Below are positions 2,058 through 60,688 of a DNA stretch of 64,000 bases, piece by piece. The position numbers were made by a program, and so were the translations under genes. The first letter of the stretch is position 1. The number at the start of each line of letters is the position of its first letter. Origin of the DNA: Streptococcus chenjunshii. Lineage in GTDB: Bacteria; Bacillota; Bacilli; Lactobacillales; Streptococcaceae. The DNA lies in contig NZ_CP031733.1 of the NCBI RefSeq assembly GCF_003086355.1, forward strand, positions 2,232,001 to 2,296,000, in the 5' to 3' direction. Under the pieces are notes generated by a model, which saw only the letters and a program-made list of their open reading frames with translations, ran no database searches and was not told where the DNA came from.

Positions 2058-2370
2058 GAACTGAACACAGCCTAAAACTCTTTGCAAAAAAGATATAGCT
2101 AAGTTTAGAATTGATTTAAAGTTAACTAGCCGTGGGCATCTGAAAGCTTTGTCGCCTTAACAGCCGACCGCATCCTTCTAATCATCCTGGCAGGGGTGCG
2201 TCTGCGAAATCGGAGATTTCGGACTTACCGCCAGCCGTAGCTGATTGAAGGCTTTGTCGTCTTAGCAACCGACCGCACCCTTCTAATCATCCTGGCAGGG
2301 GTGCGTCTACGAAATCGGAGATTTCGGACTTACCGCCTTTTCATATGGATTTCTTAGCGGTTTTTGTTTC
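2058..2370 (-). repeat. BOX-like interspersed repeat, degenerate copy with doubled core
   Basis: Read on the minus strand this has the family start (a degraded GATACAAAGCC end at 2351-2370) and the family end GAACTGAACACAGCC at 2058-2072. The core, with hairpin CGAAATC-GGA-GATTTCG, appears twice (about 2126-2232 and 2233-2340). This copy fills most of the adhE-rpsO gap; no gene is seen in 1880-2430. Confidence 0.8.
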
Positions 2371-2379
2371 TACATAAAA

Positions 2380-3712: not shown

Positions 3713-6343
3713 GTGAAAAGAATGATCAATTGGGTAGAAAAGCGGCAGAAACTTCTAATCAGTCTGGTCTGCGCCTTAGCTTTTTTTTCCTATGTTTTTT
3801 TGCTGCGCAATGAACTGAAAGTTGCAAATAATAACGGGAATATCAAAATTGTCGCAGCCAAGCAAAAAGATCCATTAGCGGCCGGTTACCGTGAAAATAC
3901 CAGACAGATTGCTCTTGAAGGACAACCCCTGAATGATGATGAGATTGTGCGCAATGACTGGGGAGTCTACAGCGCTGCTGTTCCTATTCCTATTAACATC
4001 ACCGAAGCCACAGATGACTTGGAAAATCCGACTATGGAAATCCAGCATGATGGACCGGTCAGAAATATTTCCTTTGAATACAGCCGCTACTATCTTGGCG
4101 GCTATCTGCAGATCTATCTGGATGATGTGCTTTATATGCAGCTCAACACATATCAGGAAGAAGAGAGCTACGAACTGCTGACTATTGATTTTCCTCAGCA
4201 TTACGGTCTAAGCAGCACCAATGCTGTCTGGTGGCTGCAGATGGCCATTTTAGCAGCAGCGCTGCCGCTTTTTGTGCAGCTGGAACTCTATAAACGGCTG
4301 CCCTTCCGGCGGTTCCTGCTGGCTTTTATCTTGCTGGCTGCTTCCTATTATGCCTTAGCGGCGGGCTTGAACTATACCCTGCCGCAAAGCTTCGTTTTTT
4401 CCAACACCCTATACAGCTTCAATAAAGCTATGCTGGTGCTGACGTTATTCACTTTTTTTGCTTTAATATTGGGTCAGGTTCTGTTCTACTTTGTAAAAAC
4501 ACGCTGGCGCTATTGGGGACAGCTCCTTTACTTGCTCCTGATTGTGCCCGCTCCCTTTTTAACTTTTTATCTGCTGGAAATGCCTTCCGCTTATGATTCC
4601 TATCTAAAAGCTGCGGATATTCCGGCTAATCTGGCTATCATTACTGTCATCTGGCTGACGTTGGCTATGCTGACGACTTCCCTGCGTATGGCAAGTATGC
4701 TGGCTGCTGCGGGCGGACTGATTATGGGCATTGTCAATAAAGCGCTGATTGCTATCCGGTCCACACCGCTTCTGGCCTATCATTTCCTGCAAATTCGCGA
4801 TGGTCTGAATGTTGCGCAGAACACCAAAATCACTGTTGAATTAATTATTCCGGAGTTAATCTTTTTAACCGCCTTTTACCTGATTGCACTGGCTTTCCTG
4901 CCGCCTTCCAGAACATTATTTGCCTGGCCTGAACCGCTTCCGTTTTGGCAAAAACTGCCGAACCGCTTAGCTTTTCTAAGAAAAACACTTTACCAGAAGC
5001 TGATAATCTCGGCTGTTGGTATCCTGACCGCACTCTTTGCCCTAAGACCTCTAGTTTATCATATCGCTAACAGTGTGGATATGGATTTGCTTTTCTTTTC
5101 CATGCAGAAAACCTACTATGAACATGGTTTTGCCCTTTCATTTACAAGATTTTATGAGGTTTCACAGATTACTGAACCAGAGGGATACAGTAGCGAGGCC
5201 GTAACAGATATTTTGGATCACTATCCCAGAAAAGACAATTCTGCCAAGCAGAAACCTAATATTATCATTATCCAAAATGAATCGCTGACTGACTACGGTC
5301 AGCTGACCTCTCTGAACTTTAGTCCCGATCCGCTGGAATTTATCCATTCCATGACCGATAATACAATTAAGGGGGCTTTTTATGCCTCTGTATTGGGCGG
5401 CGGTACTGCTAATACTGAGTACGAGGTGCTGACCAGCAACAGTTTAGCGATTTTGCCGCCAAATGCTTTCCCTTATCAGCAGCTGATTACTTCTCCCAAA
5501 AATAACATAACCAGTGCTTTAAACAGTTACGGCTACCAAAGCGTGGCCGTTCATCCCTATCTCGAAAATTTCTACCGGCGCAATCTGGTCTATGATTATT
5601 TAGGTTTTGATGAGTCCTATTTTAATAATTCTAAGCCTGCAATCTCCGATCTTGTTGACGTTGAGAATCTGCGGGGTTATGTCAGCGACGAATCCCTTTA
5701 TCAAGCCAGCCAAAAGCTGATTGAAGACACAGATGACCCCCTCTTTAATTTTATCGTGACAATGCAGGGGCATGAGAGCTACGGTCTTTCAGAAGAAGAA
5801 AATCCAAGGACTGTCTCTATTACCAACAGCCCCGATGACAGCAGCGCCACCGATTTTCTATCCAGTGTGAGGGCTTCTGATCAGGCGTTCAAAGATTTCA
5901 TCAACTCTCTTAACGCTTCGGATGAACCCACTGTTGTTATCATGTACGGTGACCATCAGCCCGAGCTCTCCAACAGTTATTTTGAGCCGGCTTTGGATGC
6001 CAATGACCCCAGCGCTAAATACCAAACCCCTTTTATCATGTGGGCTAACTTTGATTTGCCTCAGGACGATGACATCAAGCTCAGTCCTAATTACCTTGTG
6101 CCTTATCTCCTCAGTACTCTGACAAAGACGGATTATCCGCTGCCGGTCTCCTCTTATTACCAGTTCCTCTCCGAACTGCAGCAGCAAATCCCGATTATGA
6201 CCACTTGGGGCTACTATAATGCCGATTACGCTTACTCTGCTGAAGCACCTGCTGATAATCAGCTGCTCAGTCAGTACCGCCTGATTGGCTACAATAATGT
6301 GGTGGATAAAAGCGCCTTGAGCTTGACAAACTATTATGAATAA
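3713..6343 (+). CDS. LTA-synthase-like membrane sulfatase / phosphoglycerol transferase family protein
   Basis: Encodes 876 residues. One N-terminal membrane segment (about 13-31) is followed by a roughly 140-residue extracellular stretch, a multi-pass region (about 170-445), and a C-terminal alkaline-phosphatase-fold domain. Sulfatase motifs are NIIIIQNESLTD (metal-binding Glu, about 515-526), GGGTANTEYE with the presumed catalytic Thr near 565, and YGDHQPEL near 745. Family members transfer glycerol phosphate to surface polymers or glycolipids. Classic LtaS has five TM segments and about 650 residues, so this larger protein is a paralog class rather than LtaS itself; the substrate is not readable. 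The start is GTG at 3713, six bases after AAGGAG; the ATG at 3722 is too far. A terminator follows directly. Confidence 0.85.
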   Translation: MKRMINWVEKRQKLLISLVCALAFFSYVFLLRNELKVANNNGNIKIVAAKQKDPLAAGYRENTRQIALEGQPLNDDEIVRNDWGVYSAAVPIPINITEATDDLENPTMEIQHDGPVRNISFEYSRYYLGGYLQIYLDDVLYMQLNTYQEEESYELLTIDFPQHYGLSSTNAVWWLQMAILAAALPLFVQLELYKRLPFRRFLLAFILLAASYYALAAGLNYTLPQSFVFSNTLYSFNKAMLVLTLFTFFALILGQVLFYFVKTRWRYWGQLLYLLLIVPAPFLTFYLLEMPSAYDSYLKAADIPANLAIITVIWLTLAMLTTSLRMASMLAAAGGLIMGIVNKALIAIRSTPLLAYHFLQIRDGLNVAQNTKITVELIIPELIFLTAFYLIALAFLPPSRTLFAWPEPLPFWQKLPNRLAFLRKTLYQKLIISAVGILTALFALRPLVYHIANSVDMDLLFFSMQKTYYEHGFALSFTRFYEVSQITEPEGYSSEAVTDILDHYPRKDNSAKQKPNIIIIQNESLTDYGQLTSLNFSPDPLEFIHSMTDNTIKGAFYASVLGGGTANTEYEVLTSNSLAILPPNAFPYQQLITSPKNNITSALNSYGYQSVAVHPYLENFYRRNLVYDYLGFDESYFNNSKPAISDLVDVENLRGYVSDESLYQASQKLIEDTDDPLFNFIVTMQGHESYGLSEEENPRTVSITNSPDDSSATDFLSSVRASDQAFKDFINSLNASDEPTVVIMYGDHQPELSNSYFEPALDANDPSAKYQTPFIMWANFDLPQDDDIKLSPNYLVPYLLSTLTKTDYPLPVSSYYQFLSELQQQIPIMTTWGYYNADYAYSAEAPADNQLLSQYRLIGYNNVVDKSALSLTNYYE

Positions 6344-12372: not shown

Positions 12373-12521
12373 ACTTAGCCAGCCGTAGCCGTCTGAAAGC
12401 TTTGCCGTCTTCACAGCCGACCGCACCCTTCTAATCATCCTGACAGGGGGCGTCTGCGAAATCAAAGATTTCGGACTTACCGCCTATTTTCTCTTTGCGT
12501 TCTTAACGGCCGTTGTATCTT
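12373..12521 (-). repeat. BOX-like interspersed repeat, truncated copy
   Basis: Read on the minus strand it begins with AAGATACAACGGCCGTTAAG and then AACGCAAAGAGAAAATAGGC, followed by the CGAAATC-TTT-GATTTCG hairpin and the AGACGGCTACGGCTGG tail. The GGSCGTGTTCARTTC end is missing. Lies between proS and polC. Confidence 0.8.
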
Positions 12522-18010: not shown

Positions 18011-18019
18011 GTCTTTTGT

Positions 18020-19427
18020 GGCTCTATAATTTCTGTAGTGGGTAAATCCACTGCGAAGATTATAGGGCTTTTTAATGCAGACAAAAAGTCCCATATGACT
18101 TATAATGAAAAGCGTTGAAACAACTCATTAGAAAGATTCATATGGAACAACTCTATCATACTACAGAATTGATTGGAATTAAAGATAAAAACATTACTCT
18201 GAATAAAGTTTTTAAGTGTCAAACACACATTGAGGTCTGGGCTAGGCTTGATTATGAGCCTAAATCTTGTCCAACTTGTGGGGGAAAGCAGATAAAATAC
18301 GACTTCCAAAGGCCGTCAAAGATTCCATACCTTGAAATTGCTGGATTTCCTAGTCTTATCAAACTCAAAAAGCGTCGTTTCCAGTGCAAAAGCTGTCGCA
18401 GAGTTACAGTCGCTGAGACTAACTTGGTTCGGAAAAACTGCCAAATCGCTGAACCTGTTAGACAAAAGATCACACAAGGCTTGATCAAACGTGATGCTCT
18501 GACACACATCGCTCAGAACTTGGCTGTTTCAACGTCAACTGTCCATCGTAAGCTCAAGCAATTCACCTTCAAAGAAGACTTTTATCATCTGCCTGAGCTC
18601 CTCTCCATCGATGAATTTTCTTATCAAAAGGGTAAACTAGCCTTCATTGCTCAAGATTGTGAAACCAAGAAAATCATCACGATCCTGGATAATCGGACAC
18701 AAACAACCATTCGCAATCATTTCTTTAAGTACTCTAAAAAGGCTAGAAACAGCGTTAAAAGCGTTACCGTTGATATGTCTGGCAGCTATATTCCTCTTAT
18801 CAAAACTCTATTTCCTAATGCTCAAATCGTTCTTGATAGATTTCACATCGTACAGCATATTAGCCGAGCTCTTAATCACACTCGCATTCAACTCATGAAA
18901 CAGTTTGACAAGAAATCTCTGGAATATCGTGCCCTCAAATACTACTGGAAACTGGTCTTGAAAGACAGCCGAAAACGTTCTTTGAACCGTTTTTACTCAA
19001 GAACTTTTAGGGAGACCCTGACACCAAAAGAATGCTTGACCAAAATCTTCCAGCTTGTCCCTCAATTACAGGGCTACTATGACCTTTATCAGCTCCTGCT
19101 TTTCCACTTGCAAGAGAAAAACGCTAACTGTTTCTTTGACCTGATAACAGAAGCTTTCCCACACCTTAATCAAACCTTTAGAACCACTCTTGCCACACTT
19201 GTTCGCTATAAAAAATACGTTACAAACGCCATACAGATGCCCTATTCTAACGCCAAACTTGAGGCTACAAACTCATCAAGGACATCAAGCGTAATGCCTT
19301 TGGTTTTCGGAACTTTGACAATTTTAAAACTCGCATCCTTATCGCTTTGAACATAGCAAAAGAGGAGACGAACTTTGTCTCCTCTCGTGCTTAGCTATAA
19401 GTCACCCACTACAGTTGACAATGAGCC
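18020..19427 (+). mobile_element. ISL3-family insertion sequence, 1408 bp
   Basis: Left end GGCTC-N8-CTGTAGTGGGT (18020) is matched in inverted orientation by the right end, ACCCACTACAG-N8-GAGCC (19404-19427). An exact 8-bp target duplication TCTTTTGT flanks it (18012-18019 and 19428-19435), as expected for ISL3. The right duplication directly abuts the yajC stop codon, so insertion was just downstream of the gene. The intact duplication and ends suggest recent arrival. It carries one transposase gene, which is frameshifted. Confidence 0.93.
18142..19394 (+). pseudogene. ISL3-family transposase, frameshifted near the C-terminus
   Basis: The frame starts at MEQLYHTTELIGIKDKN; a TTG nine codons upstream is also open. 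N-terminal zinc-ribbon Cys pairs (CPTCGG, CKSC) bind DNA, followed by an HTH near 150. The catalytic DDE residues are LSIDEFSYQ, VTVDMSGSY and the Glu in NAKLEATN. Right after LEATN the frame breaks: the expected ACAAAC-AAACTC reads ACAAACTC, consistent with loss of one 4-bp AAAC unit at about 19270-19275. The frame used beyond it encodes IKDIKRNAFGFRNFDNFKTR and ends at TAG 19392-19394, while the shifted frame stops at 19350. The Glu is retained, so activity cannot be excluded. Confidence 0.85.
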
Positions 19428-19435
19428 TCTTTTGT

Positions 19436-19804: not shown

Positions 19805-20034
19805 CAATAAGATACAAAGCCCGTTAAAAGAGCAAAGCAAAAATAGGAGGCTGGACGAAGAGCCACAGGGCTCTAGGACAGACTGTCTTTTTTGCACAGC
19901 TCTTAGGGTGTGTTCAGTTCCAATAAGATACAAAGCCCGTTAAGAAAGCGACTGAAAAATAGGGGCCCAACCGATGTGCTGCAAACACGAGGGAGGGACA
20001 TCTTTTTTCCGAGCTTTTAGGGCGTGTTCAGTTC
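19805..20034 (+). repeat. Two BOX-like repeat units in the yajC leader
   Basis: Unit 1 is 19805-19920 and unit 2 is 19921-20034. Both start CAATAAGATACAAAGCCCGTTAA and end in GGGYGTGTTCAGTTC. Arms pair within each unit: AAGAGC/GCTCTT with CCC/GGG in unit 1, AAAGC/GCTTT with CCC/GGG in unit 2. Unit 1 has an inner hairpin AGAGCC-ACAG-GGCTCT. Unit 1 ends right at the yajC ribosome site. Confidence 0.85.
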
Positions 20035-41320: not shown

Positions 41321-42355
41321 ACAAGATACAAAGCCCGTCTAAAGAGCAAAGCAAAAATAGGAAACTGGGCGAAGAGCCGCAAGGCTCTAGGACAGGCTGT
41401 CTTTTTTGCACAGCTCTTAGGGCGTGTTCAATTCCAACAAGATACAAAGCCCGTTAAGAAATCCGTATGAAAATGACGGCAAGTCCGAAATCTTTGATTT
41501 CGTTGACGCGCCTCTGCCAAGACGACTAGAAAGCTGCGGTCGACTGTTAAGGTGACAAAGCCTTCAGTCATCTACGGCTAGCTAACTTGGAATCAATTCT
41601 AAACTTAGCCATATCTTTTTTGCAAAGAGCTTAGCCCGTGTTCAATTAACAAGATACAAAGCCCGTCTAAAGAGCAAAGCAAAAATAGGAGACTGGACGA
41701 AGAGCCACAAGGCTCTAGGACAGGCTGTCTTTTTTGCACAGCTCTTAGGGCGTGTTCAATTCAAACAAGATACAAAGCCCGTTAAGAAATCCGTATGAAA
41801 ATGACGGCAAGTCCGAAATCTTCGATTTCGTCTGCGCACCTCTGCCAGGATGACTAGAAGGGTGCGGCAGGCTGTAAAGACTGCAAAGCCTTCAGTCATC
41901 TACGGCTAGCTAACTTGAAATCAAGTCTAAACTTAGCCATGTCTTTTTTGCACAGCTCTTAGGGCGTGTTCAATTCCAACAAGATACAAAGCCCGTTAAG
42001 AAATCCGTATGAAAATGATGGCAAGTCCGAAATCTTTGATTTCGTTGACGCGCCTCTGCCAAGACGACTAGAAAGCTGCGGTCGACTGTTAAGGTGACAA
42101 AGCTTTCAGACGTCTACGGCTAGGGTTGCTCTGTAATATCCTTACAACGATCGCGGTAAACTCCATCTTTTTCACTAGGATTTTAGGGCGTGTTCAGTTC
42201 AAACAAGATACAAAGCCCGTCTAAAGAGCAAAGCAAAAATAGGAGACTGGACGAAGAGCCGCAAGGCTCTAGGACAGGCTGTCTTTTTTGCACAGTTCTT
42301 AGGGCGTGTTCAATTCAAACAAGATACAAAGCCCGTTTAAAGAGCACAGCAAACC
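41321..42355 (+). repeat. Tandem array of seven BOX-like units splitting the type VII operon
   Basis: Units, all in the same orientation: a 41321-41434, b 41436-41647, c 41648-41762, d 41763-41976, e 41977-42200, f 42201-42316, g partial 42317-42355. Short type (a, c, f; about 115 bp) has AAAGAGC/GCTCTT arms and an AGAGCC/GGCTCT hairpin. Long type (b, d, e; about 215 bp) has the CGAAATC-N3-GATTTCG hairpin; in e the arms are AAATCC/GGATTT and TGAAAA/TTTTCA. Types alternate. The array fills most of the essA-esaB gap; 42356-42451 shows nothing further. Confidence 0.93.
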
Positions 42356-46331: not shown

Positions 46332-46488
46332 TACAAGATACAAAGGCCGTTAAGAACGCAAAGAGAAAATAGGAGCCTGACCGCCGAGTCACTAAAGACT
46401 CAAGGGAGGGCTGTCTTTTTCTCACAGCGTTTAGGCCGTGTTCAGTTCAAATAAGATACAAAGGCCGTTAAGAACGCAAAGAGAACTA
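46332..46488 (+). repeat. BOX-like unit plus partial unit upstream of esxA
   Basis: Full unit 46332-46448 and a partial unit 46449-46488. GGCC/GGCC ends, arms AACGC/GCGTT and GAGAAAA/TTTTCTC, inner hairpin GAGTC-ACTAAA-GACTC. The partial unit runs straight into a perfect terminator-like hairpin. Confidence 0.88.
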
Positions 46489-46514
46489 GAGGCTGGGACT
46501 TTTGTCCCAGCCTC
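46489..46514 (+). terminator. Perfect 11-bp hairpin with T-run on the plus strand
   Basis: GAGGCTGGGAC-TTTT-GTCCCAGCCTC, followed by GTTTCACTTTTTT on the plus strand. No plus-strand gene needs it; on the minus strand it lies past the tgt stop without a T-run. The right half recurs at 54054-54074. Confidence 0.6.
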
Positions 46515-46553
46515 GTTTCACTTTTTTAGACATATAAGCTTGACACAGCGGTT

Positions 46554-49086: not shown

Positions 49087-49515
49087 TTACTGCTCTCTTT
49101 TAGAAGCCGGCCACAATTCTTCCATCATAGCCAAGGTCAGACCTTCCCTTTTTAAGAACTGCTCCTTTTGGAAACGGATATAGCCTTGCTCCTCTTCCAG
49201 CCGGTACTTTTCCCGCTTGACCTCTTCCAGCGTTTTATCAAAATCAGTTATTATCTTTATCATGTGCCCCTGTGCTTCCTGCACCTGTTTGCTCAAAAGG
49301 TCGTTGTGCGTGCTTTGGGCGTAGGCACTTATCTTTTGAATAGCCGGCAGCGTTTCATAGTATGTCCTAAAAACAGACTTTCTTGTCTTTTGGTAACTAT
49401 CCAATTTTACCTGCCTGACTCTTTCTTTCAGATCCAGCAGCCGCTCTTTAATCAGCAGCCGTTCCCAGTCTTTCTTTTTTTCGACATCAAGCTTTTCTGC
49501 CTTATTTTCAGACAT
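49087..49515 (-). CDS. Hypothetical charged helical protein
   Basis: Encodes 142 residues from MSENKAEKLDVEKKKDW at 49515, preceded by a G-rich ribosome site (GGGGGG). Strongly charged and predicted coiled-coil over most of its length (LLIKERLLDLKERVRQVKL; EEVKREKYRLEEEQGYIRFQKEQF). No membrane segment and no recognised domain. A BOX-like repeat ends directly at its ribosome site. Probably cotranscribed with the CoA-binding gene. Function unknown. Confidence 0.7.
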   Translation of the reverse strand: MSENKAEKLDVEKKKDWERLLIKERLLDLKERVRQVKLDSYQKTRKSVFRTYYETLPAIQKISAYAQSTHNDLLSKQVQEAQGHMIKIITDFDKTLEEVKREKYRLEEEQGYIRFQKEQFLKREGLTLAMMEELWPASKREQ

Positions 49516-49523
49516 AATCCCCC

Positions 49524-49898
49524 CAATAAGATACAAAGGCCGTTAAAAGCTCACAGCAAAAATAGGAACCTGACCGCCGAGTCACTAAAGACTCAAGGAA
49601 GGGTTGTCTTTTTTGCAAAGAGCTTAGGCCGTGTTCAATTCACCAAGATACAAAGGCCGTTAAGAAATCCGTATGAAAATGACGGTAAGTCCGAAATCTG
49701 TGATTTCGCAGACGCACCTCTGCCAAGACGGCTAGAAGGGTGCGGTCGGCTGTCAAGACGACAAAGCCTTCAGACGGCTACGGCTAGGGTTGTTTAGCAA
49801 TCTGCTTACATCACGATGACAGCCATCTTTTTCATTAGGATTTTAGGCCGTGTTCAATTCACCAAGATACAAAGGCCATTAAGAAATCCGTATGAAAC
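49524..49898 (+). repeat. BOX-like units between polA and the coiled-coil gene
   Basis: Short unit 49524-49641, long unit 49642-49860 and a partial start at 49861-49898. All carry GGCC-type ends. The short unit has hairpin GAGTC/GACTC; the long unit has CGAAATC-TGT-GATTTCG, GCACC/GGTGC and AAATCC/GGATTT arms. The block fills the whole 400-bp gap. Confidence 0.9.
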
Positions 49899-49923
49899 AT
49901 TAGCAAACCGGGCCTACAGCAGC

Positions 49924-52563
49924 TTACTTAGCTTCATACCAAGTTTGCCCCGCACTTTCATCAGCAACCAGAGGAACAGACAGTTCAATAGCTGTCTCCA
50001 TGGTTTCTTTCACCAAACGCTTAACAGTTTCCAGCTCGTCTTTTGGTACCTGCAGCACAATCTCATCGTGAACCTGCAGCAGCATCTTGCTCTTTAAATC
50101 AGCAGCAGCCAAAGCGCGGTCAAGATTGATCATAGCAATCTTTAAAATATCAGCAGCACTGCCCTGAATAGGCGAGTTTATTGCTGTCCGCTCCGCAAAA
50201 TTGCGGATATTGAAATTTCTGGAATTGATATCAGGGAGCTCCCGGCGCCGTTTAAAGAGGGTTTCTACATAACCCTTATCCTTAGCTTCACGTACAACGG
50301 TTTCCATATAATGCTTAATCCCCGGATAGCGCTCAAAGTAAGTATCAATATACTGCTTGGCCCGCTTGCGCGGAATGCCCAGATTGTTGGCCAGCCCAAA
50401 ATCAGAAATCCCGTAAACGATGCCAAAATTGACGGCCTTTGCGTTGCGGCGGTCATTTGGCGTGACATCTTCAGGTTTTTCAATGCCAAAAACCCGCATA
50501 GCCGTAGAAGTATGGATATCTGCGCCTTCCCTGAAGGCGGCAATCAAATGCTCATCCTGTGATATATGCGCCAAGACCCGCAGTTCAATCTGTGAATAGT
50601 CAGAACTCAGCAGCAGAGCATCCTCCTCGGACGGGACAAAAGCTTTGCGGATCAGCCGCCCCTGCTCCAAGCGAATCGGGATGTTCTGCAAGTTCGGATC
50701 AACACTGGACAAACGCCCAGTTTGGGTCAAATCCTGCAGATAGCGAGTATGAATCTTGCCATCAGACTGGATAAAGTCCTGCAGCCCCACAATATAAGTA
50801 GACTGCAACTTAGCAATCTGCCGGTATTCCAAAATCTTCGAAACAACCGGTGAAATAGGCGCCAGCCGCTCTAAAACATCACCTGCTGTAGAATAGCCCG
50901 TCTTGGTCTTCTTGGTCATAGTCAGCGGAAGCTGAAGTTTATCAAAAAGGACTTCTCCCAGCTGTTTAGGGGAATTAATATTGAACTCTGTTCCAGCCAG
51001 GTCATAGATTTCCTGTGTCAGCTGCTCAATGGCCTTTTGGTTAGCTGTCTCCATGTCCTGCAATGTTGCCTTTTGGACAGCAATACCGGTGATTTCCATT
51101 TTAGCCAGAACGTCAGCCAGGGGCAGTTCCATTTCAAAGAGCAAATCCTGCTGTTCATGCTCTGCTAATTGAGCCAGCATGACTTTTTCGGAATCCTGCA
51201 GAACCTTGACCTTCTTTGCTAAATGCGCAAGCAGAATGTCTTTTTCGGGAACAGCCCGTTTAACCCCCTTGCCGTAAACAGCGGTATCGGTCTCCAGCGG
51301 CAGGCTGGTATAAAGGCGGGCAATCGTGGATATATCATTATTCTCAACTGTTGACAGCAGATACTTAGCCAGACGGCTGTCAAAAGCGGCCTGAGGCAGG
51401 TCAATGCCCAAACGGCTGAGCAAGACTTTGCTGCGTTTGAAATCATAGGTTTTTATCGGCCGTGACAGTGCTTCTTTAAAAAGCGGTTCCTTCAGCAAAG
51501 CCACATCAGCCGAGGCATAGATAGCCTGGTCATTCCCCCAGGCGAAACCTATAATATCCTCAATATGATAGTTTTCTCCAAGCACTTCAAAGTAGAAAAA
51601 CTGATTATCTGCAAACATTGAGGCAGACAGGTCGTTCACTTCAGTATAAGCGGCCTCAAAACTTTCTTGGGCAGTGTCCCCATCCAAAGCCGCTCTAAAC
51701 TGCTTAAATTCCATTTCGTCATAAAATTTAAGCAGCCTGTCATTGTGAGGACCTTCATAAACAATATCTTCAAGACCGATAGCAATCGGCGCTTCCGTAT
51801 TGATTGTGGCTAACTGTTTGGACAGAAAAGCCAGCTCCTTATCATTGATAAGGTTTTCTTTCATTTTCGACCTTTTAAAGGATTCAATATTGTCATAGAT
51901 GCCCTCCAGACTGCCGTAATCGCTCAGTAGTCTCAGGCCGGTTTTTTCTCCGATTTTAGTTACACCGGGAATATTATCAGATTTATCACCCATTAAGGCT
52001 TTAAGGTCGATAAACTGCTCAGGCGTAATTCCCATCTTTTCCTTAAGATAGGCGGGAGTAAACTGTTCAAAGTCCGCCACTCCCTTTCTTGAAATCTCAA
52101 CAACCGTATTATTATCGGCCAGCTGGATGAGATCGCGGTCCCCGCTGACAATAGTGACCTCATACTGCTCCCCGTTTTCAGCTAATTTATCCAGAGTGCC
52201 AATAATATCATCCGCTTCATAATTCGGCAAATCATAGAAAGCTATCCCTAATCCCCGCAGCATATCACGAATATAAGGGAGCTGTTCACGGAATTCGTCC
52301 GGCGTTTTAGCCCGTCCGGCCTTATAATCCGCAAACATTTCTGTCCGAAAGGTTGTTTTCCCAGCATCAAAGGCCACCAGGACATGAGTCGGCTGCAGAC
52401 GTTCAAGCAAATGATTCAGCATCAAGTGAAAGCCGTAAATGGCATTCGTATGCAGACCGGAGCGGTTCTTAAAGCGGTCGATCTGATTATAAAGGGCAAA
52501 GAAAGCCCGGTAAGCGACGGAAGAACCATCGATTAAAAGCAGTTTTTTCTTCTTATCGTTCAT
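49924..52563 (-). CDS. polA: DNA polymerase I
   Basis: Encodes 879 residues from MNDKKKKLLLIDGSSVAYRAFF. N-terminal 5' nuclease (about 1-295, with YEADDIIGT and SGDRDLIQL), a central 3'-5' exonuclease-like domain that lacks the usual catalytic acids, and the C-terminal polymerase (DYSQIELRVLAHIS, RRNAKAVNFGIVYG, HDEIVLQVP). Needed for Okazaki-fragment processing and repair. The ATG lies only six bases after a TATAAT and has no ribosome site, so the mRNA is probably leaderless. The longer open frame upstream to 52692 has no family similarity. Confidence 0.97.
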   Translation of the reverse strand: MNDKKKKLLLIDGSSVAYRAFFALYNQIDRFKNRSGLHTNAIYGFHLMLNHLLERLQPTHVLVAFDAGKTTFRTEMFADYKAGRAKTPDEFREQLPYIRDMLRGLGIAFYDLPNYEADDIIGTLDKLAENGEQYEVTIVSGDRDLIQLADNNTVVEISRKGVADFEQFTPAYLKEKMGITPEQFIDLKALMGDKSDNIPGVTKIGEKTGLRLLSDYGSLEGIYDNIESFKRSKMKENLINDKELAFLSKQLATINTEAPIAIGLEDIVYEGPHNDRLLKFYDEMEFKQFRAALDGDTAQESFEAAYTEVNDLSASMFADNQFFYFEVLGENYHIEDIIGFAWGNDQAIYASADVALLKEPLFKEALSRPIKTYDFKRSKVLLSRLGIDLPQAAFDSRLAKYLLSTVENNDISTIARLYTSLPLETDTAVYGKGVKRAVPEKDILLAHLAKKVKVLQDSEKVMLAQLAEHEQQDLLFEMELPLADVLAKMEITGIAVQKATLQDMETANQKAIEQLTQEIYDLAGTEFNINSPKQLGEVLFDKLQLPLTMTKKTKTGYSTAGDVLERLAPISPVVSKILEYRQIAKLQSTYIVGLQDFIQSDGKIHTRYLQDLTQTGRLSSVDPNLQNIPIRLEQGRLIRKAFVPSEEDALLLSSDYSQIELRVLAHISQDEHLIAAFREGADIHTSTAMRVFGIEKPEDVTPNDRRNAKAVNFGIVYGISDFGLANNLGIPRKRAKQYIDTYFERYPGIKHYMETVVREAKDKGYVETLFKRRRELPDINSRNFNIRNFAERTAINSPIQGSAADILKIAMINLDRALAAADLKSKMLLQVHDEIVLQVPKDELETVKRLVKETMETAIELSVPLVADESAGQTWYEAK

Positions 52564-53842: not shown

Positions 53843-53945
53843 TCTGGCAAAGGGGGGCAGACGAAATCACAGATTTCCGGCTTACCGTCAGCCCTAGACG
53901 TCTGAAGGCTTTGTCGTCTTGACAGCCAGCCGCGCCCTTCCAGTC
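53843..53945 (-). repeat. Degenerate BOX-like core
   Basis: Contains the hairpin remnant GAAATCACAGATTTC and the segment AGACGTCTGAAGGCTTTGTCGTCTTGACAGCC in the family order, but both end motifs are lost. Oldest-looking copy in the window. Confidence 0.7.
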
Positions 53946-60484: not shown

Positions 60485-60688
60485 AACAAAGATACAAAGG
60501 CCGTTTAAAAATCCGTATGAAAATAGGGGCTGTCTTCGTGATGCCTAAGCATCACGAAGACAGCCATCTTTTTCACTAGGATTTTAGGCCGTGTTCAATT
60601 CACAAGATACAAAGGCCGTTAAGAACGCAAAGAGAAAATAGACGGTAAGTCCGAAATCTGTGATGTCGCAGACGTCCCCCTGTCAGAA
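60485..60688 (+). repeat. BOX-like unit with perfect 17-bp hairpin, plus a partial unit
   Basis: Unit 60485-60601 has AAATCC/GGATTT and TGAAAA/TTTTCA arms, but its whole interior is one perfect hairpin: GGCTGTCTTCGTGATGC (60528-60544), CTAA, and its complement (60549-60565). A partial second unit (60602-60688) keeps the start and a core whose right arm has mutated (GATGTCG). Confidence 0.9.

Follow-up and report, generated by a model that had tools for sequence, protein, structure and literature searches.

Repeat arrays in the window

The stretch of DNA analysed here, called the window, is 64 kb long and belongs to a genome made of a single contig of 2.44 Mb, whose same-genus relatives include named streptococci. 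Copies of a repeat family lie at eight places in it (around 2.1, 12.5, 19.8, 41.3-42.4, 46.3, 49.5-49.9, 53.9 and 60.5 kb). Each unit opens with a start motif (S) and closes with an end motif (E), in the layout start-(modules)-end. The features, in window coordinates, are the following.

49530..49641, + strand: unit 1, start to end, 112 nt, arms AAAGCTC..GCAAAAA / TTTTTTGC..GAGCTT; part of the alignment of ~110-nt units
49642..49646, + strand: linker ACCAA between units 1 and 2, 5 nt
49647..49860, + strand: unit 2, 214 nt, with one B module (B core 49684-49708)
49861..49865, + strand: linker ACCAA after unit 2, 5 nt
49866..49897, + strand: partial start motif closing the 49.5-kb array
49513..49529, - strand: leader beside the start end of the 49530 array, TTATT + GGGGGG + ATT + ATG, opening an ORF that extends to 49087
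19811..20034, + strand: two-unit array (units 19811-19920 and 19927-20034; linker CAATAA)
41325..42353, + strand: six-unit array, with a partial start from 42323
46337..46485, + strand: one unit (46337-46448), linker and partial start
60491..60668, + strand: unit 60491-60601, linker ACAA and a degenerate second copy (B core 60644-60668)
12400..12519, - strand: start end (12519-12501) and B module, end motif uncertain
2058..2372, - strand: degenerate copy with two tandem B modules (cores 2310-2334 and 2205-2229) and end motif 2075-2058
53862..53886, - strand: isolated degenerate B core in which no start or end motif was found

All eight places had been recognised in the initial annotation, which credited each with the shared end motifs; this is right overall, except that the 53.9-kb copy is a degenerate inner (B) module only. 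The start ends of the 19811 array and of the 60491 unit adjoin the Shine-Dalgarno (SD) and ATG of - strand ORFs, the latter being the transketolase ORF. The leader at 49513..49529 looks by eye like a ribosome-binding site and failed the strict test described below, its SD-like part being non-canonical; a tblastn search with its ORF found no match in the loci of 24 relatives. Within the six-unit array, 41441-41648 and 41769-41976 are chimeras with unmatched arms.

Copy number and anatomy of the family

At no more than 3 mismatches the start motif has 17 matches in the window against 0.01 expected, and the end motif has 13 against 0.13. The whole genome holds 428 start motifs at this threshold, 207 on the + and 221 on the - strand, and none of the reversed-pattern control. 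Units were surveyed in an evenly spaced genome sample plus the window, 864 kb of the 2.44 Mb. This yielded 201 S motifs, 135 E motifs and 123 S-E spans, of which one, 23 nt long, is an artefact. The commonest unit is ~110 nt long (82 of the 123 spans measure 106-116 nt). Units of 162-167 nt carry an extra module of ~54 nt and no B module, those of 205-218 nt have one B module of ~105 nt, and most of those of 312-327 and 421-477 nt have two to four. Some units are solitary and others form tandem arrays, joined by linkers of 4-7 nt. Being short, non-coding, self-complementary and present in high copy, the family displays these MITE traits, and on sequence evidence the window arrays belong to a Streptococcus repeat family.

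Compensatory change in the arms

The initial annotation proposed that the two arms co-vary within copies and that this reflects selection on a folded single strand. The covariation is confirmed by pairing counts within the genome, between species and at one orthologous gene. Within the genome, 78 distinct ~110-nt units of 79 collected (the odd copy L115:10857-10969 was left out) were scored at 21 outer pairs against shuffles that ignore relatedness. Paired cells amount to 98.5%, a level reached by none of 500 shuffles; shuffled partners give 88.1% and slid partners no more than 57%. Cells changed on both sides number 182 versus 67.3 in shuffles. Of the 21 pairs, 8 change on both sides, the shuffled mean being 6.8 and 17 of 500 shuffles reaching that count. 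The count of pair types does not exceed the shuffles (16 versus 18.4). One pair takes the forms CG, AU, UA and GC 22, 17, 17 and 16 times, respectively.

Two of its detailed claims were also checked. The correspondence of GCCC with GGGC and of GGCC with GGCC holds for most units (GSCC/GGSC with 58 GC and 13 CG) and breaks down in 7 of the 78, which are mismatched. The inner hairpin CGAAATC-N3-GATTTCG with its variable loop is real, but its stem is nearly invariant and adds little covariation. Among 122 units of at least 100 nt, arm types agree in 109; another 10, of which 9 exceed 150 nt and two lie in the window, are chimeras combining two types, and 3 have an arm that could not be assigned to a type.

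Named relatives contributed 32 short units from eight species, nearly all of which adopt the same fold with other arms; L072:4433 did not fold like the others. Both sides change in 24 of 28 pairs among the relatives (121 model matches, 117 distinct) and in 20 of 28 at dnaJ loci (51 matches, 49 distinct), both alignments being fitted to a model of the family and thus biased towards it, with shuffles that ignore relatedness. Strong compensatory change in both arms at these three levels of comparison fits, and supports, selection on a folded single strand.

The predictions also distinguish the strands. The S-to-E strand is predicted to fold better than the mRNA strand (78 of 78 without G.U pairs), which suggests that a role at the DNA level is at least part of the cause of the matched arms. 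G.U exceeds A.C on the S-to-E strand (124 to 14, 92 to 14 and 188 to 43), in a test dominated by few columns and not significant for the columns as a whole.

Position and orientation at ribosome-binding sites

The S end points at the gene on the strand opposite to S-to-E. A start end was scored as lying at a ribosome-binding site when an SD begins 4-11 nt after S and a start codon follows at 14-24 nt, opening an ORF of at least 60 codons. The test was applied to 85 of 108 S-first arrays of this genome, the rest being a lone S without recognisable arms or too near the end of a stretch. It was passed by 56 of the 85 start ends, compared with 56 of 4000 random positions, and by none of 28 end motifs. 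In the window, two of six tested arrays pass (19811 and 60491). According to a crude ORF finder, 40 of the 56 have a codirectional neighbour at their E end, and the 56 downstream ORFs look unrelated from their first residues.

In the relatives, 24 of 81 S ends pass and none of 58 E ends. The proportion is 14 of 18 in S. merionis, whereas few S ends pass in S. acidominimus (3 of 13), S. azizii (3 of 15) or S. cuniculi (1 of 9). The new observation is that copies occupy translation-initiation regions in one orientation, with the start end towards the start codon. Neither this fixed orientation nor the position at ribosome-binding sites is among the observations of the initial annotation, and titles and abstracts of the open-licence full-text literature yielded no report of these repeats at ribosome-binding sites. 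An atpD-like ORF has an occupied leader both in S. massiliensis (L104 3127) and in the window genome (L123, - strand array).

Base composition next to the start end

The 16 nt that follow S in the 56 positive leaders contain 4 C in 896 positions. S is followed by at least 14 C-free nt at 52 of the 56 positive sites and at 17 of the 29 negative ones; the frequency of such a run is 33% in empty leaders at equal distance, 10.8% at intergenic TT sites and 6.5% at random TT sites. Since empty leaders are often C-poor too, occupancy provides the fairer test. Among 432 ORFs of this genome with an SD, 36 of 147 C-free leaders are occupied, compared with 8 of 285 others (Fisher p 8e-12). In relatives the rule is weaker (23 of 81, random 5.2%), and S. 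suis shows hardly a trace of it (2 of 24). It may arise from the insertion machinery or from later selection.

Copies between the SD and the start codon in S. suis and at dnaJ

S. suis DE512T1 has 28 model matches, 24 of them with a readable S end, and in 10 of these 24 a start codon lies within 10 nt of S. The genes that follow, named by eye from their first residues, include prfA, dnaJ, thrS, carB, proS, purB, mutM and others. An SD is found within 40 nt 5' of the E end in all 10 start-codon copies versus 1 of the 14 other S. suis copies; the controls give 2.7% for random stretches and 0 of 28 for free E ends of the window genome. With the start codon at S and the SD 5' of E, these S. suis copies therefore sit between the SD and the start codon.

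The dnaJ site was followed in the best 30 matching loci among 197 genomes, nearest to S. suis. A copy is present in 29 of these best 30 loci, 27 by motif and 2 (L347 and L358) by model match with the SD not located; L363 is the sole one with a normal leader. Several arm types occur at this site among the best 30 loci, and the SD was located in 26 distinct dnaJ leaders. Of 34 distinct leaders whose folds were predicted (L343 left out), 18 bring an SD-AUG distance of 108-144 nt in linear sequence down to 7-8 unpaired nt and 16 keep 14-25 unpaired nt. Shuffled spacers are also compact, with a median of 15 unpaired nt and 15-76 of 100 shuffles reaching the observed value, and fold predictions for single leaders are not significant against shuffles. 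It is possible, from these modelled structures, that folding shortens the SD-AUG spacing and that the copies form a putative mobile "split ribosome-binding site". No report of a split site made of repeats was found in titles and abstracts of the open-licence full-text literature.

Mobility and candidate enzymes

None of the 29 other loci read for the transketolase leader, which is occupied at 60491, carries the element; 28 of them keep the SD and the remaining locus is a distant paralogue. In arrays, 37 of 88 linkers have their final 5 nt identical to the flank, where shuffling gives 9.5. Among the 52 whose adjoining units differ in their arms the match holds for 22, compared with 5.7 by shuffling and a maximum of 15 over 3000 shuffles. 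As linkers match the flank even between units of different arms, simple tandem duplication is no explanation. Insertion is thus supported, at the level of sequence comparison, by empty orthologous leaders together with flank-matching linkers. Target duplication at free end motifs is close to expectation (4 of 31 versus 2.9). As to a possible polarity of the arrays, the gene-proximal unit is closer to other copies in 9 of them and the distal one in 7, with 2 ties; mismatches in end motifs stand at 1.07 for distal units versus 0.40.

No transposase and no autonomous IS sharing the ends was found in the 864 kb surveyed of 2.44 Mb, and the sample's two types of multi-copy IS-like repeat do not share the ends of the family. 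Five spans from a start to a loose end, 1.1-3.2 kb long, were considered as autonomous elements and discarded, their ends fitting the motif poorly. Plasmid and phage sequences gave no match for one typed unit.

IS200/IS605- and REP-type elements are moved by Y1 transposases, have folded single-strand ends and reach many copies. The present family resembles them in its folded single-strand ends and many copies, but differs in the pairing of its two ends with each other and in linkers that repeat the flank. Of 197 genomes of the genus, 122 have Y1 genes, with no evident link to copy number, the repeat-richest genomes (this one, G059 and G021) having 1, 2 and 2. The single copy of this genome, ~1.6 kb from the nearest array in surroundings that look IS200-like by eye, was rejected as mobiliser. 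Target recognition of a guide type was likewise dismissed: mutual information between positions of the start arm and letters of the flank is at most 0.103 bits, and no pairing rule emerged.

Relation to known repeats and leader structures

A comparison with Rfam, suggested in the initial annotation, gives no gathering match on the arrays and, for 49400-50000, no match up to E=1. The claim that the sequences differ from pneumococcal BOX elements also holds: the BOXA1R / BOX-PCR primer, whose sequence we take to be that of boxA, has 0 matches in this genome and window at no more than 3 mismatches, and matches in 94 of 197 genomes of the genus. In the BOX-rich genome G074, of which 20 of 52 primer matches were taken, 1 of 19 boxA and 1 of 20 boxC ends have an SD and a start codon beside them. 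G106 and G074, both rich in primer matches, also have 16 and 15 matches to the present model, one of those in G106 being by dnaJ as judged from coordinates (L207). In S. azizii, a stretch similar to a pneumococcal boxC end (L075 ~5450-5531) directly adjoins the start end of a present element.

The family is probably not new as a repeat: by anatomy and species, not by sequence, the S. suis BOX A/C repeats (RepSU1, PMC3049150) are probably its counterpart. In the available part of that survey, the S. suis BOX-type repeats have A and C ends of ~50 nt, A1C1 being RepSU1, and B and D modules. Likenesses are the modular build, the two ~50-nt ends, the smallest form of ~100 nt and the variable inner modules (PMC3049150), as well as the species, S. 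suis DE512T1 carrying the present family. They differ in that the extra ~54-nt module here occurs without B, while boxD is reported only together with boxB (PMC3049150), its identity with the present module not being implied. A position at ribosome-binding sites is not mentioned for RepSU1 in the accessible text (PMC3049150), where thorough de novo searches did not extend to other species. With pneumococcal/mitis BOX the family shares a modular, folded, MITE-like nature and high copy number (PMC3049150). BOX is treated there as parasitic; a point of difference from the present family is its reported enrichment between convergent genes.

The split site has an experimental precedent by analogy in phage T4, where RNA structure between the SD and AUG cuts the spacing of genes 38 and 25 from 22 to 5 and from 27 to 11 nt (PMC3014915, as far as its accessible text goes). 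In both systems structure between SD and AUG would restore spacing. The T4 structures are short, gene-specific and proven by mutation (PMC3014915), whereas here the structure is a repeated element of 100-130 nt and is a prediction.

Proposed explanation and alternatives

We lean, with somewhat more belief than doubt, to an explanation in which the family consists of BOX-type, non-autonomous mobile elements of streptococci at home in initiation regions. In each unit, inner modules stand between a start arm and an end arm, which pair into a long hairpin. A recombinase, probably acting on the folded single strand, would insert copies where initiation regions are poor in C. Copies of the window genome and of S. 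merionis typically sit 5' of the SD. In S. suis and its kin many are placed between the SD and the start codon; there, pairing of the ends would loop out the element and leave SD and AUG at a working distance, as a split ribosome-binding site. The need to stay folded at that position and the folding of the transposing strand would both preserve the complementarity of the arms.

Several results speak against this explanation: shuffled spacers fold compactly too, 16 of 34 leaders keep 14-25 unpaired nt, the S-to-E strand folds better than the mRNA strand, 10 of 122 units are chimeras, free end motifs lack a target duplication, placement at ribosome-binding sites is low in S. acidominimus, S. azizii and S. 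cuniculi, the C-free rule is weak in relatives and nearly missing in S. suis, and the 35% of the genome surveyed holds no transposase for the family.

Our stronger formulation, to which we give slightly less than even credence, is that a mobile element inserts into a translation-initiation site and survives by folding out of the mRNA. The SD and the start codon, 108-144 nt apart, would then act together as a single split site, a "translational intron" consisting of nothing but RNA structure. The co-varying arms would record that selection, and the insertion machinery of some species would prefer C-free tracts upstream of start codons.

The arms could instead covary only through a folded single-strand DNA intermediate of transposition, leader placement being a choice of target (C-free tracts, often at ribosome-binding sites) without translational meaning. 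This is a serious contender that we hold to be rather improbable. The better predicted folding of the S-to-E strand agrees with it, as does the excess of G.U over A.C on that strand, not significant over the columns as a whole. Initiation needs no pairing where window-genome copies lie, 5' of the SD, and sites negative for a ribosome-binding site are C-poor as well (at least 14 C-free nt in 17 of 29). It does not account for the SD on the far side of all 10 S. suis start-codon copies, nor for the dnaJ copy kept with different arms in 29 of the best 30 loci.

That same persistence at dnaJ, across many genomes, would be expected of a regulatory leader, responsive for instance to temperature or RNase and kept to control its gene; dnaJ is a heat-shock gene. 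Also in its favour, boxA and boxC are reported to raise downstream expression in pneumococcus (PMC3049150). The 56 downstream ORFs, which look unrelated, and the orthologous transketolase leaders without a copy make such a function unlikely. Least credible of all, and in our judgement very improbable, is a parasitic repeat without selection on the fold, whose matched arms would be inherited within a few subfamilies. Arm types are indeed discrete and common to many copies, chimeras persist and the shuffles are not tree-aware. Yet 24 of 28 pairs change on both sides in 117 distinct rows from relatives, all four Watson-Crick types occur at one pair within the genome and slid controls are far lower.

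The favoured reading, mobile BOX-type hairpins in C-poor initiation regions with a split site in S. suis, bears on two old questions: how high-copy bacterial repeats persist without harm to the host, and what BOX-type elements do. A repeat in one orientation at ribosome-binding sites, possibly folding itself out, opens them to a direct test. Start-site annotation that seeks an SD close to the start would miss such split sites, and the C-free leaders offer a target rule for finding the missing recombinase.

Other repeats

A second recurring small hairpin, of the GGCTGGGAC..GTCCCAGCC type, is terminator-like and often stands beside ends of the elements. It is present in the window at 46487-46516 and also in L123, L129, L138 and L118. 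A repeat of ~1.4 kb at window 18014-19433 recurs almost identically in other stretches and looks like an IS, which we take to be ISL3-like. It contains a match to the Rfam "small RNA" family Srn266 (18020-18129), which may therefore represent the end of an IS. In L132, 5315-8476 is made of long tandem DNA repeats in steps of ~300 bp, 89-93% alike, perhaps a gene for a large repetitive surface protein.
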